A DNA stretch of 64,000 nt. It comes from Chloroflexota bacterium (GTDB taxonomy: Bacteria; Chloroflexota; Anaerolineae; UBA1429). The translations under genes and the position numbers were made by a program. The DNA lies in assembly GCA_019873625.1 (NCBI GenBank), contig JAIOAW010000009.1, positions 1 through 64,000 on the forward strand, in the 5' to 3' direction. The notes under the pieces were generated by a model. The model had not been told where the DNA came from, did not search any database, and saw nothing but the letters and a program-made list of their open reading frames with translations. Positions 42,097 to 53,941 of the stretch are shown here, one piece after another (positions within the stretch are counted from its first letter, which is position 1; each line of letters begins with the position of its first letter).

Positions 42097-44121
42097 ATGC
42101 CCATCGCCTTAGGGATTGATACCGGCGGAACCTATACCGATGCCGTCCTTTTGGATTACCAAGCGGGGGAGGTCATCGCCGCCGCCAAAGCGCTCACCAC
42201 GCGGCACGACCTCTCCATCGGCATCGAAGAGGCGATGGCGCGCGTCATCCGCCAGGCGGGGGAAATCGGCCTCGTCTCCCTCTCGACGACCCTGGCCACA
42301 AATGCCCTCGTGGAGGGCAAGGGCGCGCCCGTGTGCGCCTTGCTCATCGGCTATGAAGAACACACGCCGGTTGATTGGGTGCGCGAACTGAACACCGACC
42401 GAATCGTCTTTCTCAACGGGGGCCATACGACGGCGGGCGAAGAGGTCGCCTCGTTTGACGAACGCGCCGCCCGCCGGGCCATCGCCGAGCATGCCCCGCA
42501 CGTGGCGGCCTTTGCCATCTCGGGCTATTTTGCCCCGCGCAACCCCGCCCATGAACTCGCTGCCAAACGCCTGGTGCAGGCGATGACGGGCCTGCCCTGC
42601 ACGTGCGGCCACGAGTTGACCCATCGCCTGAACGCCCTGCGCCGCGCCACCACGGTGGCCCTCAACGCCAGCCTCATCCCCCTCGTGTGCGACCTCATCG
42701 CCGCCGTAGAGCGTTCGATGGCGCGGTTTGGCATTCACGCACCACTGATGGTGGTCAAAGGGGATGGTTCCCTGATGAGCGCCGAGGTCGCCAAAGAGCG
42801 CCCCATTGAGACGATCCTCTCCGGCCCGGCGGCGAGCGTGGTGGGGGCGCAGCACCTTGCCGCCAGCCCCTACGCCGTGGTGGTGGATATGGGCGGCACC
42901 ACGACGGATATCGCCCTGGTACGGCACGGCCGGCCGGCCCTCAACCCTCGGGGGGCCACCGTAGGCCGCTGGCAGACGATGGTCGAAGCGGTGGATGTGC
43001 AAACCGTGGGCCTGGGCGGAGACAGCCGCGTTTGGCTCTCAGAAGATCACACCTTGCAGATCGGCCCGCGCCGCGTCGTGCCCATCTCGCTCCTGGCGGC
43101 CTCGTACCCGGGCATCGCAGAACGCTTGGCCGCGCAACGCGGTGCCCGCCCCGACCCAGCGCAGGGCGAGTTCTTTATCGCGGTGCGCGGGGCTTGGGCA
43201 CCAGATGGCGAGACGCCCCCCTTCGAAAAAGAACTCCAACGGCGCCTGCTGGAAGGGCCTTTGACCCTCGGCGATATCCATGCCCTGATGCGCTATCCCC
43301 AACTCTATGCCAAGTACCTTGAGCGCCTGGAACGGGAGGGCCTCATCTTGCGCTCGGGGCTAACGCCGACGGACGCGGCGCACGTCCTGGGCCTTTACAC
43401 CGCCTGGGATCCCGCCCCTGCGCGGCTGGCCGCCGAACTCCTGGCCCAGCGCCTGGGGTGGGATGTGGAAACCCTCTGCCGCCAGGTGGTGGCGCGCACG
43501 GCCGCCCGCATTGCCCACGAGGTGGTGCGCAAACTCGTGCGGGAGGCCCTGCCGGAGGACGATCTCTCCCCCGCAGATGCCTGGCTCCTGAGCAGGGCGC
43601 TCGCGCCGAGTGCGGAGGACGCCCTCGCTTGCCAATTGACGCTCAAGCCGACCCTCACGGCCATCGGCGCGCCGGTGGGCACCTACTTTCCGGAGGTGGC
43701 GCGCCTTCTGAACGCGCGTTTGGAAATCCCGCCGCATGCCGAGGTGGCCAACGCCATCGGGGCCGTGGTGGGGAGCGTGGTTTGCCGTTTGCACATCCCC
43801 ATCTTGCCGGATGAAGAAGGGCGCGTGCACGTCCATCTCCCCAACCGCACGGCCCAATTTGCTGACCTAGAACGGGCCGCAGCCTATGCCGAAGCGCTTG
43901 GCCGCCAACTGGCCCTGGAACAGGCCCTCCGGGCAGGGGCCGAGAACCCGCAAATAACCGTCTCGCGCGAGGATCATCGCGCGCCCATCAGCCGGGGCGG
44001 CGCCGACGAACTCTGGGTGCGCACGGTCATCGAGATCACCGCCACAGGGCGCCCGCGCCTTGGCCAACCCACGCCGGGGGGCGAGGCAGCCGCCCCAACA
44101 TCGCAAGGAGAGGCCGTATGA
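42097..44121 (+). CDS. Hydantoinase/oxoprolinase family protein (HyuA-like)
   Basis: A 674-residue protein of the ASKHA-fold hydantoinase A/oxoprolinase family, which opens cyclic amides or carboxylates ketones with ATP. The N-terminal nucleotide-binding motif is GIDTGGTYTDAVLLD and the second DMGGTTTDIALV. The ATG at 42097 is preferred to 42088 because AAAGGA lies 9 nt before it. No HyuB subunit gene follows; instead a radical SAM gene overlaps the stop (ATGA). The partner and substrate are unknown. Confidence 0.8.
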   Translation: MPIALGIDTGGTYTDAVLLDYQAGEVIAAAKALTTRHDLSIGIEEAMARVIRQAGEIGLVSLSTTLATNALVEGKGAPVCALLIGYEEHTPVDWVRELNTDRIVFLNGGHTTAGEEVASFDERAARRAIAEHAPHVAAFAISGYFAPRNPAHELAAKRLVQAMTGLPCTCGHELTHRLNALRRATTVALNASLIPLVCDLIAAVERSMARFGIHAPLMVVKGDGSLMSAEVAKERPIETILSGPAASVVGAQHLAASPYAVVVDMGGTTTDIALVRHGRPALNPRGATVGRWQTMVEAVDVQTVGLGGDSRVWLSEDHTLQIGPRRVVPISLLAASYPGIAERLAAQRGARPDPAQGEFFIAVRGAWAPDGETPPFEKELQRRLLEGPLTLGDIHALMRYPQLYAKYLERLEREGLILRSGLTPTDAAHVLGLYTAWDPAPARLAAELLAQRLGWDVETLCRQVVARTAARIAHEVVRKLVREALPEDDLSPADAWLLSRALAPSAEDALACQLTLKPTLTAIGAPVGTYFPEVARLLNARLEIPPHAEVANAIGAVVGSVVCRLHIPILPDEEGRVHVHLPNRTAQFADLERAAAYAEALGRQLALEQALRAGAENPQITVSREDHRAPISRGGADELWVRTVIEITATGRPRLGQPTPGGEAAAPTSQGEAV

Positions 44122-45170
44122 ACTGGCGGGCCGCGCTGGCCTCGGTCTCTATCTCAGCCCGCTCCTGGGCGCGCTACCAAGGCGCGTTGAGGGCCATCCA
44201 ATGGCTGGGGGGATACAGCCCCTTCCCGCTGCACCTCGATCTCGTCCTCACCTGGCGGTGCAACCTGGCCTGCCCGATGTGCAACCTCCGCCAGGAGGAC
44301 CACGTGCGCGCCTTTGCGCCCTTCCGGGGGCGCGAACTGGGCACGGCGGATTGGTGCCGCCTGTTGGAGGACGTCAAGCGCTCCTTTCCCCTCCGGCCGA
44401 ACATCAACCTCCTCGGCGGCGAGCCGACCCTCTGCGCGGGGTATCTCGAGATCGCCGCGCACGCCAAGCGGATGGGCTTCCGCTGCACATTCGTAACAAA
44501 CGGTACCACGCTCGCGCGAGATGCGGAACGCCTTGTGGAAATCGGCGTGGACGTCATCACCCTATCTCTCGATGGCGACGAGGCCACGCACGACCGCATT
44601 CGCGGGGCGGGGGTCTATCGTCGGGCGATAGAGGGCCTCCGCCGCGTGCAAGAGGCGCAGCGCGCCTCCGGCCTCAACCGGCCGCGCCTATTTATGGCCA
44701 CGGCCATCAGCGGCGCCAACTATGCCCGGTTGAGCGCCCAGGTGGAACTCGCCCACGCCCTGGGCCTTGAGGCGCTCACCTTCTTGCACCTCCAGTTTCC
44801 GGATTCCGACTTGAGTACCCACGGCATTGACGTGCCACGCCTTTTGGAAGAGATGGCGCGCGCCCAAGAGCGCGCCCGCGCCCTGGGCCTGCCCACCCAT
44901 TTTTACCCCTACCTCAAGGCTGAGCAGGTGCCCATCTATTACCTGGAACCGGCCGACCGCTTAGGGCGGAACTGCCTTTCGCCCTGGCTGCGTATGAGCA
45001 TCTTGCCGGAGGGCACGGTGGTGGCCTGCGAAAATCACGTCATCGGCGTGTGGGAGAGGGAACCTCTGCGGGCCATCTGGAATGGCCCACGGATGCGCGC
45101 CTTCCGCCAGCGGCTCGCCCGAGAGGGGACGATGCCCTCCTGCGGGCGCTGCTGCCGACGTTTGTTCTAG
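44118..45170 (+). CDS. Radical SAM/SPASM protein 1
   Basis: A 350-residue radical SAM enzyme. The cluster motif is WRCNLACPMC (CxxxCxxC) near residue 52, followed by the SAM motif region LLGGEPTLC. A C-terminal SPASM-like auxiliary domain shows CLSPW, TVVACENH, AIWNG and CGRCCRRL, enough Cys for an auxiliary cluster. It overlaps the HyuA-like gene by 4 nt and a second radical SAM gene follows 11 nt after its stop. The substrate is unknown; peptide or small-molecule modification is typical of SPASM enzymes. Confidence 0.87.
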   Translation: MNWRAALASVSISARSWARYQGALRAIQWLGGYSPFPLHLDLVLTWRCNLACPMCNLRQEDHVRAFAPFRGRELGTADWCRLLEDVKRSFPLRPNINLLGGEPTLCAGYLEIAAHAKRMGFRCTFVTNGTTLARDAERLVEIGVDVITLSLDGDEATHDRIRGAGVYRRAIEGLRRVQEAQRASGLNRPRLFMATAISGANYARLSAQVELAHALGLEALTFLHLQFPDSDLSTHGIDVPRLLEEMARAQERARALGLPTHFYPYLKAEQVPIYYLEPADRLGRNCLSPWLRMSILPEGTVVACENHVIGVWEREPLRAIWNGPRMRAFRQRLAREGTMPSCGRCCRRLF

Positions 45171-45181
45171 GAGGTTCCGGA

Positions 45182-46240
45182 GTGAAAAGGCTCTTGGCGA
45201 GGCTGCGGCGTTTGGGCTGGCGCAACGGCTGGAGGCTCATCCGCTATCACCTTCGCCCACTGCGCTATAGCACACCGCGCAAGGTGTGGAATGTGGCGCG
45301 CGTCAAAATCCAACGCTGGCTGCGCACCGAACGCGTCTGGGGTATGCCCTACCGCTATTACCTCGACCCCATTAACGTCTGCAACTTGCGTTGCCCCCTG
45401 TGCCCCACGGGGTTAGGCATCCTAGGTAGGCCCAGGGGGCGCTTCGACTTAGCGGCCTTTTGCCGCATCATAGATGAGATCGCCCCCTACGCTTATACCG
45501 TGGAACTCTATAACTGGGGCGAGCCTTTCTTACACCCGGATATCGTCGAGATGATCCGCTACGCCCACAGTCGGCGCATCGCGGTGCGGCTGAGCAGCAA
45601 TATGAACTCCTTTTCGCCCGAGTTGGCCCAGGCCACGGTGGAAGCGGGGTTGGATCGCCTCATCGTCTCGCTGGATGGGAGCACGCAGGAATCCTATGCC
45701 CGCTACCGGCGCGGCGGAGATTTGGCCCGCGTGCGCGCGAACGTGCGCCTCTTGGTGGAGGCGAAACGCCGCGCCCACTCGGAGACACCCTTTATCCTGG
45801 CGCGTATGCTCGTGATGCGCCACAACGAACACGAGATCGGGGCCGTCCGCACCCTGGCCGAGGCACTGGGCGCCGATGCCTTTTCCATCGCACCTATCTT
45901 TGTGGATACAACGGATGCCAGCCAGGTGGCCGAGTGGCTGCCCGCCGAACGCGCCTTGAGCGCCTATGAGGGCGCGCCCGCCCTGGCCAACCGCTGGGCC
46001 TGCGCCGAACTCTGGGAGGCGATGACCATCAACTGGGATGGCGGCCTTTCGCCTTGCTGTTGGGTGCACCAAAAGTCCACCGATCTCGGCAATGCCTTCG
46101 AACGGCCCCTCCGCGAACTGTGGAACGGGCCGGCCTACCGGAGCGCGCGGCGGGCCTTTGCCCGCGGTGGCCCCAAACCGCCCCTCGTCGAGACGGTGTG
46201 CAACCGCTGTCGAGGGCAGCCGTTGTATCTGAAAGAATGA
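45182..46240 (+). CDS. Radical SAM/SPASM protein 2
   Basis: A 352-residue radical SAM enzyme distinct from the preceding one. The cluster motif is CNLRCPLC near residue 65 (INVCNLRCPLCPTG), with LYNWGEPFLHPD as the GGE-like motif. The C-terminal SPASM-type Cys set is CAELWEAM, SPCCWVH and CNRCRG, with ELWNGPAYRSARR. The GTG start at 45182 follows AGGAGG; the open frame to 45050 overlaps the upstream gene. A glycosyltransferase gene follows 12 nt later. Confidence 0.87.
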   Translation: MKRLLARLRRLGWRNGWRLIRYHLRPLRYSTPRKVWNVARVKIQRWLRTERVWGMPYRYYLDPINVCNLRCPLCPTGLGILGRPRGRFDLAAFCRIIDEIAPYAYTVELYNWGEPFLHPDIVEMIRYAHSRRIAVRLSSNMNSFSPELAQATVEAGLDRLIVSLDGSTQESYARYRRGGDLARVRANVRLLVEAKRRAHSETPFILARMLVMRHNEHEIGAVRTLAEALGADAFSIAPIFVDTTDASQVAEWLPAERALSAYEGAPALANRWACAELWEAMTINWDGGLSPCCWVHQKSTDLGNAFERPLRELWNGPAYRSARRAFARGGPKPPLVETVCNRCRGQPLYLKE

Positions 46241-48011: not shown

Positions 48012-48083
48012 CGTCCACTCCTTACCGAGGTAAAAGGCAAAAACCGTCCGGCCCCCGTCCCTTCACTGCCCTTGTAAGAAAAG

Positions 48084-48176
48084 CGGGAGTGGATGGGAGT
48101 CGAACCCACCAGGGCCACTTGCGCACCCCTCAACGGTTTTGAAGACCGCGGAGCCCACCGGGACTCATCCACCCCC
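48084..48176 (-). tRNA. selC: tRNA-Sec (selenocysteine, anticodon UCA)
   Basis: Read on the reverse strand, 93 nt with an 8-bp acceptor stem (GGGGGTGG/CCACTCCC), a 6-bp D-stem (GAGTCC/GGGCTC with a 4-nt loop), an anticodon arm with loop CTTCAAA giving UCA, a long variable arm, and a T-arm with loop TTCGACT on a 5-bp stem. Together this gives the 8+5 form typical of bacterial tRNA-Sec. The discriminator is G and CCA is not encoded. It reads UGA as selenocysteine with SelB. A T-rich stretch follows. Confidence 0.95.
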
Positions 48177-49552: not shown

Positions 49553-50890
49553 CTAGTTTGGCCCCGCACTCCCTTCCTGGGCTGAGGCCAGCGGTTCCAC
49601 CTTCATCTTGAGGGCCAATTGCGAAAAGGCCGCATCAGGGGCCTGGCGGAAGGGCGTATAGACGCAATCCGTCACGGTAACCACCAGGCGCAGGTGATCT
49701 CCCTCCAAGGTGAGCGTCGTACCGGGCTGGGCCACCACCACCTCGCCCCGACGGCTCAAGCGCGCCAGGCGCGCCTCATCCTCATAGGCAAAGGGGCTGG
49801 CCAACACTTTGGTTACCGTGCGGTTGCCCTGCGTCTCGAACAGCCACACCTCAAAGGCATCCACCCGTTGGGGCAATTCGCCGCTGAGGAGATCGCTCAC
49901 CACCACGCCGCACTGCCCCACGAACTCGCGCTCCGGAGATTCGATGGTGAACGCGTAGTAAAAGTCGTCATCGCCCAGGTGATATTCCGTGGCGAATTCG
50001 TTCCACGCCTGGCCAAGCCTTGCCCGCGTGAGCGATTTGAGGGGGCGCGCCTCAAGCGATTCCTCCTGCGGCGCCGGCCCCTGGAGGGGCACCACCGTCT
50101 CCTCCAAGGGAATCTCCTCGACTTCCTCCTCTTCGCCTTCGGCCTCTTCGAAATCGAGGGGTTCTTCCTCCTCTTCCGCCTCTAGGATATCGGGCGCAAA
50201 AGGAGCGGCCAACGGCGCTTCAGGGGCCGCGGGGGTGCGCGTTGCCCCCTCAGGCACAGCGCGCTTATGGCGCGGGAGCCTTTCCCAAACGGCATACCAA
50301 GCCCCCTTATGCTCTTTAGGCGGGGCGGGGCGAGCGCCGAGCAGGGCCTGACTCGGCGAGGCCACCGACCGCGCCGGGGCCATCATCCGCCGGCTCTTGC
50401 GGAGGACGAGCCACAAAATCCCCGCCAACCCCGCGAGCACTAGGACGGTGCCTACCCCCCACAGGAGATAGGGTTTGCCGGGCCAGGGCTGCTTGGCCGC
50501 GGGCGCAGGGGGGGACGGCAGTTGGACGATTTCGGCCAAGCGGCGTAGGCGCAACGCCGCGGCCGCATCGCCCTTGGCCTCTTGCTCAGCGGCCGTTTGT
50601 TCCACGAGGGCGGCAACATCCTGCCAATCCGTATTGTCGTCGGTCAATTCATAGAGGCGCTCTCCGGCCAAATGCGCATCGCCGTTCACGGCCAAAGAGT
50701 CGGCCACCATCAGAACGTACGCCTTCTGGTGCTCCGGGCGCAGGTCGCACGGGTCCGTATTCACCCAACGCACGGGCCACACCAGCCAGCCCAGCATCAG
50801 GCCGATGAGGATGCCGCCCACCGCCGCCGCGCCGATCCAGAGCGCCAAACGCCACCCGCTGGGCCTGCTGCGCAGGTCATATGTCGCCAT
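49553..50890 (-). CDS. Membrane protein with acidic cytoplasmic region, unknown function
   Basis: A 445-residue protein. A hydrophobic segment at about 16-40 and another at about 150-172 bracket an outer helical domain (AVNGDAHLAGERLYELTDDN; AEQEAKGDAAAALRLRRLAE). After the second segment comes a Pro/Ala-rich, then strongly acidic stretch (EEEEEPLDFEEAEGEEEEVEE). A globular C-terminal domain of about 150 residues follows (YYAFTIESPEREFVGQCGVVV). No family was recognised. It lies between dinB and the M24 peptidase, same strand. Confidence 0.7.
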   Translation of the reverse strand: MATYDLRSRPSGWRLALWIGAAAVGGILIGLMLGWLVWPVRWVNTDPCDLRPEHQKAYVLMVADSLAVNGDAHLAGERLYELTDDNTDWQDVAALVEQTAAEQEAKGDAAAALRLRRLAEIVQLPSPPAPAAKQPWPGKPYLLWGVGTVLVLAGLAGILWLVLRKSRRMMAPARSVASPSQALLGARPAPPKEHKGAWYAVWERLPRHKRAVPEGATRTPAAPEAPLAAPFAPDILEAEEEEEPLDFEEAEGEEEEVEEIPLEETVVPLQGPAPQEESLEARPLKSLTRARLGQAWNEFATEYHLGDDDFYYAFTIESPEREFVGQCGVVVSDLLSGELPQRVDAFEVWLFETQGNRTVTKVLASPFAYEDEARLARLSRRGEVVVAQPGTTLTLEGDHLRLVVTVTDCVYTPFRQAPDAAFSQLALKMKVEPLASAQEGSAGPN

Positions 50891-50992: not shown

Positions 50993-52072
50993 TTAATCGC
51001 GCGGCCAAGGGATGACGGGCACCTTGGGAGACTGGGTCAAGATGCGGCAGCCATCCTCCGTTACGAGGACCATATCCTCAATGCGCACGCCGCCCCAGCC
51101 CGGCAGGTAGATGCCCGGCTCGATCGTTACGACGTGCCCTTCGGCGAGCGTGTCCTCGGAGAGGCGCCCTGCGCTGGGGCCTTCGTGGATTTCTAGCCCC
51201 ACGCCATGGCCCAGGCCGTGGCCGAATTTCTCGCCATAGCCGGCCTGCTCGATGACCTGCCGCGCCACGCCATCCAGCGCCGCGCCCGCTAGGCCAGGCC
51301 GCACGGCGGCCTCGGCAGCCTGTTGCGCCTCCAGCACTGTATGCCAGATGGTCAGGTATTCCTCGCTGGCCTCTCCCAGGCAGAAGGAGCGCGTGAGGTC
51401 GGAGCAATAGCCCCGCACCATCGCCCCCATATCAATGACCAAGGGATCGCCGATACCCACAGGGCGATCGGAGGGTACCGCGTGAGACATCGCGCCGTTT
51501 GGCCCCGAGCCAACGATGGCCGCAAACGAGAGTTTCTCCGCGCCGTGCGTGCGCATATGCACTTCGAGTTCCCAGGCGATCTCGCGCTCCGTCTTGCCGG
51601 GGCGCAGCCACTCCATAAGATGGACCATCGCCTCATCGGCAATGCGCACGGCCTCGATGATGGCCTCCATCTCTTGCGCATCCTTCACCATACGCAGAGA
51701 TTCAACGATATTCTTGGTGGGCACCCACTCCACAGAGGGCATCTCGCGCTGCCATTCCTGATAGGTATCCACCGTTACGACGTGGCTCTCGAACCCTACG
51801 CGGCGCAGGCCCAGCCGGCTCACCTGTTCGGCAAGGGTTTTGACCACTGGCCCCGTTACTTCCACCAGCGTGAAATCGGGGGCCTGCATCTTGACCTGCT
51901 CATAATAGCGAAAGTCAGTCGCGAGCAAGGCCTCCTCGGGGGTGATGATGAGCACCCCGGCGCTCCCCGTGAACCCGCTCAGATAGCGGCGGTTTTCTGC
52001 CTTGGCGATGAATAGCGCATCCAACCCCTGAGAGGCGAGCGCCGTGCGCACTCGCTCCACACGCTCTTTCAT
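50993..52072 (-). CDS. M24B metallopeptidase (Xaa-Pro aminopeptidase/dipeptidase)
   Basis: A 359-residue pita-bread-fold peptidase cleaving X-Pro bonds with a dinuclear metal centre. The creatinase-like N-domain has ENRRYLSGFTGSAGVLII. The metal ligands are in IDMGAMVRGYCSD (two Asp), GHGLGHGVGLEIHEGP (His), VVTIEPGIYLP (Glu) and GVRIEDMVLV (Glu). AAAAGGAG precedes the ATG, located at the end of the upstream selenoprotein gene 3 nt away. Confidence 0.92.
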   Translation of the reverse strand: MKERVERVRTALASQGLDALFIAKAENRRYLSGFTGSAGVLIITPEEALLATDFRYYEQVKMQAPDFTLVEVTGPVVKTLAEQVSRLGLRRVGFESHVVTVDTYQEWQREMPSVEWVPTKNIVESLRMVKDAQEMEAIIEAVRIADEAMVHLMEWLRPGKTEREIAWELEVHMRTHGAEKLSFAAIVGSGPNGAMSHAVPSDRPVGIGDPLVIDMGAMVRGYCSDLTRSFCLGEASEEYLTIWHTVLEAQQAAEAAVRPGLAGAALDGVARQVIEQAGYGEKFGHGLGHGVGLEIHEGPSAGRLSEDTLAEGHVVTIEPGIYLPGWGGVRIEDMVLVTEDGCRILTQSPKVPVIPWPRD

Positions 52073-52075
52073 AAT

Positions 52076-52546
52076 CTACTCCTTTTCTCGAACGTTTTCG
52101 CGCGCTGGCGAGGCGCCGTGCTCGATTTCCTCCTCGATGAGCGGCACCAGCATCTCGACGGCCGCCTCCACCACGGGCAAACAGCCGATGACCTCATCGC
52201 GGGCCACATCGCGGATGGGCTGGCAGAGGGTGCTCCCATAGCGCGCGACGAACCCCTCGCGCAGCCGAGAGATCAGCGCCTTCAAGCGATCGTCCTTCTC
52301 GGCGCTGGAGGTGCGCCCCCACAGGGCGCCCAAGATGAGGATGCTCCCGCTTAGGGCGCCGCACAGTTCTTGGCGGCAGCCCACCACACCCCCACCGAAA
52401 GGATTGCTGACGCGTAAGAGGACCTCCGGCAAGGGCGCCAAATAATGCTCGCCCACGGCGAGCACCACGGCCTCCGATCAATAGAACTTGGCGCGGTAAG
52501 CCTCCCGCGCCCGGGCAAGGATTTTCTCCAACGGCGATGATGACAT
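52076..52546 (-). CDS. C-GCAxxG-C-C family selenoprotein (Sec23 encoded by TGA)
   Basis: A 156-residue redox protein with selenocysteine at codon 23 (TGA at 52480-52478, context FYU-SEAVV). The rest fits the C-GCAxxG-C-C family: FGGG at 50-53, CGALSG at 62-67 (Cys62), Cys108 in TLCQPI, Cys122 in IGCLPV; Cys57 is extra. Sec occupies the family's first conserved Cys. The ATG at 52546 has GAAGGAGA 7 nt upstream. The reading frame is open on both sides of the TGA, and a stem-loop follows it. The next downstream GTG (52468) has no family N-terminus. It lies 15 nt after galK and 3 nt before the peptidase, an apparent operon. The family's redox role is not established. Confidence 0.9.
52446..52464 (-). 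promoter_or_regulatory. Bacterial SECIS element
   Basis: Just after the TGA on the reverse strand, TGCTCGCC-GTG-GGCGAGCA forms an 8-bp perfect stem with a 3-nt loop starting with G, extendable by G-U pairs. The apical loop begins 22 nt after the TGA, inside the 16-37 nt window for bacterial SECIS elements. Confidence 0.75.
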
Positions 52547-52561
52547 CCACGGTCTCCTTCC

Positions 52562-53941
52562 CTAAAGGGTGGTTGAAAAAATGCGCCCAGCGCCGGGCGC
52601 GGAACGGCAGATAAAGGCCTCGGCCTCCAGCCCCGTCCGAGCACGGTAGGCCTCTTTGACAAAGTGTTCGAAATCGGCCACAGCCCCCGCCTCGACGAGG
52701 GCCACGATGCATCCCCCCCATCCTGCCCCCGTGATGCGCGCCCCCAAACAGCCCGGCGCGGCCTGCGCCGCCTCAACAAGCGCCTCGATGGCGGGCGTGC
52801 TGATTTCGTAATCATCTCGCGCGCTGGCGTGGGCCGCAGAAATCAACGCGCCAAAGGTCGCGGTATCTCTTCGTTGCAGGGCGCGGACGCTCTCCAACAC
52901 GCGCCGGTTCTCATACCACACGTGGCGGCACCTCCGCCGCACGAAAAAGACGTCCGTCTCGGGGTCGCGCCCAGCCTCCAAAATCGCCACGGGGTCAATC
53001 CCTTGGGCGCGCAAGGCCTCCGCCGTGATGACCTCCGGCAGGAGCGGCTCGAGGTCTTCCCAAGGGATGTCGCCCACATCGCGCAGATGCGTGATGTGCG
53101 GGTAGGCACGCTGAAGGAGCCTGACGCCGATGCGCCCTTCGGCCACGCGCCGGTTAAAGAGCGGCCCCGTGTTCAGGTGTTTGGTGCGGCTATCCACCAC
53201 CACGACGCGATACCCCGGCGGGATGGGCACCTGCTCATAGTAATATTCGCCGCTCGGCGTTCGGGGGCGGCAATCCAAGAACAGGGCATGGTCGCGCTGA
53301 GCCAAAATGGAGATGAACTGATCCATAATCCCGCCGCGCGTGCCCACATACCACTCCGCGCGGCCGCAGGCATCGGCTAGGCGTGGGCCGCTCAGGGGGA
53401 GCCTGTTGAGGGCGACCAACGCCATCGCCACGGCTACGGTGAGGGCCGATGAGGAAGAAAGCCCCGAGCCGCGCGGCACCCCCCAAGGCGGGCGGCCATC
53501 CACCAACCCATCGAACCCTTTGAGAGTTGGCCCCCACTCGCGGGCCAAGAGTTGCGCCGCGCCCTGGGCATAATTCGCCCAATCTCCGGCGGGGCGCGGC
53601 GGAATATCGGGGCCGATTTGAAAAACACGCGCCTCAAAGGCCGTTTCGACGTTCTGTAAGCGCACCAGGCCGTCTTCCCTCGGGCGCACCAAAAGGAGGA
53701 TATCCTTATCCAGGGCCATAGGCATCACATAGCCGTGGTTGTAATCCGTGTGCTCGCCGATGAGGTTCACCCGCCCCGGCGCCCGAAAGACGTCCACCGG
53801 CCCTGGGCCGTAGAGCCGCTCAAACAGGCCGAGCGCCTCTCCCAAACGCCGCGCTTGCCCCTCGAGGAACGGCTCGGAGGCCGCGCCATACACCTCCGCA
53901 AGGCGCATCATCGTCGTCTGTATACTGGCCGCATTCGACAA
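52562..53941 (-). CDS. galK: Galactokinase
   Basis: A 459-residue GHMP kinase phosphorylating galactose at C1. Motifs are the galactokinase signature GRVNLIGEHTDYNHGYV, the ATP-binding GSGLSSSSALTVAVA and the C-terminal GARITGAGWGGCIVAL. It is longer than most GalK (about 390 residues), with an N-terminal extension of about 35 residues. The TTG start at 53941 is chosen because AAGGAG lies 7 nt upstream; no other Leloir genes are in view. Confidence 0.93.
   Translation of the reverse strand: MSNAASIQTTMMRLAEVYGAASEPFLEGQARRLGEALGLFERLYGPGPVDVFRAPGRVNLIGEHTDYNHGYVMPMALDKDILLLVRPREDGLVRLQNVETAFEARVFQIGPDIPPRPAGDWANYAQGAAQLLAREWGPTLKGFDGLVDGRPPWGVPRGSGLSSSSALTVAVAMALVALNRLPLSGPRLADACGRAEWYVGTRGGIMDQFISILAQRDHALFLDCRPRTPSGEYYYEQVPIPPGYRVVVVDSRTKHLNTGPLFNRRVAEGRIGVRLLQRAYPHITHLRDVGDIPWEDLEPLLPEVITAEALRAQGIDPVAILEAGRDPETDVFFVRRRCRHVWYENRRVLESVRALQRRDTATFGALISAAHASARDDYEISTPAIEALVEAAQAAPGCLGARITGAGWGGCIVALVEAGAVADFEHFVKEAYRARTGLEAEAFICRSAPGAGRIFSTTL

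Follow-up and report, generated by a model that had tools for sequence, protein, structure and literature searches.

A C-GCAxxG-C-C family gene with an in-frame TGA probably read as selenocysteine in an Anaerolineae genome, and apparent Sec-to-Cys replacement among its relatives

The window, that is the whole 64,000-nucleotide stretch of contig JAIOAW010000009.1 analysed here, contains a gene (Table 1) that we regard, with very little doubt, as encoding a selenoprotein of the C-GCAxxG-C-C family, in which SelB and an RNA hairpin would direct selenocysteine (Sec) to residue 23, with a likely redox role for the protein and with Sec as the probable ancestral state in the Anaerolineae subfamily. 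The decoding of the UGA at codon 23 as Sec is proposed with high confidence from the Sec machinery of the genome, the downstream hairpin and the conservation of the codon among relatives. During translation, SelB with Sec-tRNA-Sec would recognise the hairpin 21 nt past the UGA, and Sec would be inserted at residue 23 in place of termination.

A 156-residue frame opens at the ATG at 52546 and, when translated with TGA as U, is interrupted solely by the TGA at codon 23. Standard ORF calling starts at the GTG at 52468, 3' of the TGA, and yields a 130-aa frame. That such a call begins past the TGA and misses the first redox residue had been described in the original prediction; its coordinates, its frame, the TGA at 52480-52478, the ATG and the AAGGAG ribosome site likewise all match the sequence.

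Table 1. Features of the selenoprotein gene, of its neighbours and of Sec-decoding genes in the same genome. Positions are those of the window unless a contig is named.
Feature	Position	Strand	Details
C-GCAxxG-C-C family selenoprotein gene	52076..52546	(-)	156 aa, predicted Sec at residue 23; conserved C62, C108, C122
In-frame TGA, probably read as selenocysteine	52478..52480	(-)	codon 23; same codon TGA or TGC/TGT in relatives
Shine-Dalgarno-like AAGGAG	52554..52559	(-)	7 nt before ATG; seen in sequence
Bacterial-type SECIS hairpin	52442..52468	(-)	12-bp stem, loop GUG at 52454-52456, 21 nt after UGA
galK, galactokinase	52562..53941	(-)	TIGR00131 286 bits, cut-off 226.65; ends 15 nt before selenoprotein ATG
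M24 metallopeptidase (prolidase-like)	50993..52072	(-)	PF00557 4.4e-72, PF01321 9.8e-33; starts 3 nt after selenoprotein stop
selC, tRNA-Sec, anticodon TCA	48083..48176	(-)	ARAGORN; RF01852 78.4 bits, gathering score 47
selD	L020:1501-2520, genome contig C14	(-)	in-frame UGA in AAGUGGKRA

The read-through protein scored 72.2 bits against PF09719 (E = 5.1e-20, cut-off 27) and 63.6 bits against TIGR01909, named 'C-GCAxxG-C-C family (seleno)protein' (cut-off 47.4). Both cut-offs are exceeded, in agreement with the class assigned from the sequence at the outset, and the TIGR01909 name confirms the earlier remark that NCBI already knows this class as a '(seleno)protein'. In the whole genome, the 52076-52546 gene is the only match to the family. 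The four family Cys positions correspond to U23, C62, C108 and C122, the CGAxxG motif being C62-G63-A64-L-S-G67 (CGALSG). These four positions are invariant in an alignment of 15 sequences (U written as C), all of which match TIGR01909; E25 is also invariant and H22 is conserved in at least 90%. The alignment with family members bears out the proposal that Sec occupies the first conserved Cys of the family. PF09719 is already on the list of selenoprotein families, where the C-GCAxxG-C-C selenoprotein is given as forms 1 and 2 (PMC13188914), and it is counted as one family elsewhere (PMC9312934), so the window gene adds a further member to an already known selenoprotein family.

What the window gene shares with TIGR01909/PF09719 is the set of four Cys positions, the first of them occupied by Sec, the CGAxxG motif and scores above both cut-offs; by contrast with these families at large, it represents a subfamily from Anaerolineae that usually has Sec and in which, within one family, the gene is linked to galK and M24. 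Two narrower assignments were rejected. The DVU_1555 family C-GCAxxG-C-C protein profile (NF045669) belongs to the same wider family and covers residues 19-139, but with 40.9 bits its cut-off of 103 was not reached, and the Desulfovibrionales relatives found carry Cys, not Sec. The N-terminal half of the HUGP/GUXX-star fusion selenoprotein (NF045501) is matched by residues 6-109, but the score of 23.9 bits is far below the cut-off of 325, and the second domain of that fusion is absent.

The AlphaFold2 model of the protein is all-alpha (pLDDT 92.5, pTM 0.88), with predicted helices at residues 23-35, 63-76, 108-115 and 123-142. Each of Sec23, Cys62, Cys108 and Cys122 begins a helix or adjoins the beginning of one, and thiols and selenols placed in this way tend to have a lowered pKa. 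Searches of the PDB returned no solved relative by sequence and no useful match by fold (best E 1.9, TM 0.26). Most of the known Sec sites are redox centres, and Pfam describes PF09719 as 'putative redox-active'. Because of the conserved Cys and Sec residues and of the family name, the gene product is somewhat more readily seen as a small redox protein than as anything else, in which the Sec23 selenolate would act as the nucleophile, to be resolved by at least one of the three Cys. A less likely role is the handling of a metal or metallocofactor, with binding or transfer through Sec and the three Cys and not redox catalysis. This role is kept because some neighbours of the gene outside the window's family are metal-related, namely DUF364/DUF4213 (putative heavy-metal chelation), FeS_assembly_P, MobB with an Fe-S motif, Nitro_FeMo-Co domains and ParA ATPases with ferredoxin motifs; however, the neighbours differ among lineages with no single recurring partner, and those in the window's own family are galK and M24.

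Regarding the genomic context of the putative redox selenoprotein, the gaps of 15 nt and 3 nt among galK, the selenoprotein gene and the M24 gene make the three look like one operon. This arrangement had been thought unusual, but other members of the family share it. Of the 11 other same-family genomes with the gene, 10 have galK as its immediate upstream neighbour, for Sec and Cys genes alike, and 7 have M24 as its immediate downstream neighbour (in G013 a contig end interrupts the region). Since different neighbours surround the gene in the other families of the class, the galK-(U/C)-M24 arrangement is lineage-specific and says little about function; with no partner recurring outside the window's family, the neighbourhood was discarded as a functional clue. 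Several genomes of the family conserve, behind the M24 gene, a gene for a 445-aa protein without a Pfam match (49553-50890, minus strand, in the window); in some, dinB comes next. Two adjoining ORFs with CxxxCxxC motifs, resembling radical SAM proteins, are present at 44118-46240 on the plus strand.

The state of codon 23 was compared among relatives. In the first set of relatives, TGA was found at exactly this codon in nearly all Anaerolineae-type genes of the subfamily, and four genomes of the same family as the window genome (G003, G010, G013 and G014) have TGC or TGT there. A scan of named genomes found TGA in Anaerolineae and a few others, and Cys in Desulfovibrionales, Zixibacteria, KSB1 and others. 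A class-wide alignment search gave 48 matches above 115 bits, of which 8 are stop-free (the four genomes just named together with G066, G136, G181 and G258); the remaining 40, window gene included, hold TGA, the position of which was read directly in those genes whose sequence was fetched. Two Clostridiales MAGs (L124, L139) and a Ca. Zipacnadia MAG (L107), none of them Chloroflexota, also have TGA at this codon. According to the original prediction, the absence of any homologue with Cys aligned at codon 23 would have counted against it; such homologues exist, with TGC or TGT at this very codon. It is very improbable that the UGA is a genuine stop, with a shorter protein made from the GTG at 52468 and the upstream codons representing a leader or decay: the 130-aa frame returned by standard ORF calling would suit this explanation, but the residues flanking the TGA align with those of relatives, the Cys relatives read straight through, and the ATG at 52546 is preceded by AAGGAG at 7 nt and by the end of galK at 15 nt.

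Decoding of this UGA as Sec is matched by the gene content of the genome, in which selA (565 bits), selB (307 bits, or 337.5 with its neighbouring match), selC and selD (336 bits) are all present and make up the full Sec trait. The in-frame UGA of selD lies within the motif AAGUGGKRA, which makes it a second selenoprotein gene; we take this UGA to agree with the known Sec site of SelD. The case for UGA as Sec is decisive beyond chance because TGA is found in dozens of relatives and TGC or TGT in others, and because the whole Sec machinery is there. Decoding of the UGA as another amino acid, through a reassigned code or a UGA-reading tRNA-Cys, would fit the Cys found at position 23 in relatives but is even less credible than a stop, given that the tRNA with the TCA anticodon scores 78.4 bits with the tRNA-Sec model, that selA, selB and selD are present and that the other in-frame UGA found falls in the catalytic motif of SelD. 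On the strand of the selenoprotein gene, the tRNA-Sec gene follows it at a distance of about 4 kb. A functional link from this closeness was rejected, as the relatives checked have their best tRNA-Sec match on another contig, and it is probably a coincidence.

The hairpin that had been noticed at SECIS distance downstream of the TGA is real. Bacterial SECIS elements are limited to a loop of 3-9 nt with a G in the first two positions, a stem of 4-16 bp, a spacing of 16-37 nt and an MFE of at most -7.5 (PMC13188914), and the hairpin, with a 3-nt loop (GUG), a stem of 12 bp, a spacing of 21 nt and a folding energy of -17.5 kcal/mol, satisfies every one of these constraints. The two strands of the window hold 1,471 TGA triplets; a hairpin that agrees with the model at -7.5 kcal/mol or better follows 11.6% of them, and one as good as that of the selenoprotein gene follows 0.27%. 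Across 39 Sec genes, a 9-bp core is paired in 90.3% of cells compared to 32-50% when it is slid, and four pairs show changes on both sides. The covariation score of the same 39 genes is 0.222 for a shuffled mean of 0.154, with 0 of 500 shuffles as high, a shuffle control that is inflated by the relatedness of these genes.

It should be noted that the hairpin lies inside the coding sequence, where the conserved residues A-V-G-E/D-H partly force its pairing. When compared to synonymous-codon shuffles, the Sec genes have 7.66 pairs against 5.99 and a mean folding energy z of -1.12, whereas the Cys genes have 3.79 pairs against 3.76 (z +0.26); taken one by one, most genes show no significant excess over such shuffles. 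Since the Sec genes pair beyond synonymous re-coding and the Cys genes do not, RNA-level selection is indicated for part of the hairpin, which thus appears to be partly imposed by the protein sequence and partly selected as RNA. Some more distant Sec genes (G061, G130, G143, G148, L124 and L139) have no such hairpin at the same position. A SECIS 'fossil' in the Cys genes was considered and rejected, as their pairing is not above that of synonymous shuffles (7 pairs in G003, p 0.36; 7 pairs in L103, p 0.08). An Rfam search of the surroundings of the gene identified neither a SECIS element nor any other family, all matches being below threshold and attributable to chance.

A maximum-likelihood tree of the Sec and Cys genes was built with the Sec/Cys column masked; it is drawn from a single short protein, and its root and some deep branches are weak. 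Three Cys groups are nested in the Sec clade: g4 and g11 of the window's family f1 (100/99), g61 of family f42 (100/99) and g126 of family f50 (100/90). The starred branches of the tree require at least four changes, one of which separates the Cys outgroup from the Sec clade. We therefore consider it probable that the Anaerolineae subfamily was ancestrally Sec and then underwent three Sec-to-Cys changes, one in each of these families.

The Cys genomes were also inspected for Sec-decoding genes. A strong tRNA-Sec match (64-72 bits) is kept in G003, G010 and G014 of f1 and in G066 of f42, and no strong match was obtained in G013 (77% complete) and G136 (88% complete). SelD with UGA is found in all four f1 Cys genomes and in G136, the other Cys genome of f42; SelB is above the cut-off in the four f1 genomes and was not found above it in G136. 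No tRNA-Sec match above threshold was detected in G181 and G258, which carry Cys and are 95-97% complete. The retention of Sec-decoding genes by Cys genomes of f1 and f42 suggests that a loss of Sec decoding was not what compelled the change in these families.

Sec-to-Cys events were found in four families only, mostly formate dehydrogenase (FdhA) and SelD (PMC1794560), and the same pattern, mostly formate dehydrogenase and SelD, is repeated elsewhere (PMC13188914). The changes proposed here resemble these cases in that Sec would likewise have given way to Cys in organisms still decoding Sec; they differ in that they concern the C-GCAxxG-C-C family and apparently occurred three times within one class.

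As standard ORF calling truncates the gene, annotations of many Chloroflexota genomes would miss its putative redox residue and true start. Of more interest than the annotation itself is a by-product, the apparently repeated change from Sec to Cys: if true, Sec-to-Cys reversion, reported mostly for formate dehydrogenase and SelD in the literature consulted, would extend to the C-GCAxxG-C-C family, and the Sec and Cys orthologues found in the same galK-M24 setting would constitute a natural experiment on what Sec buys.
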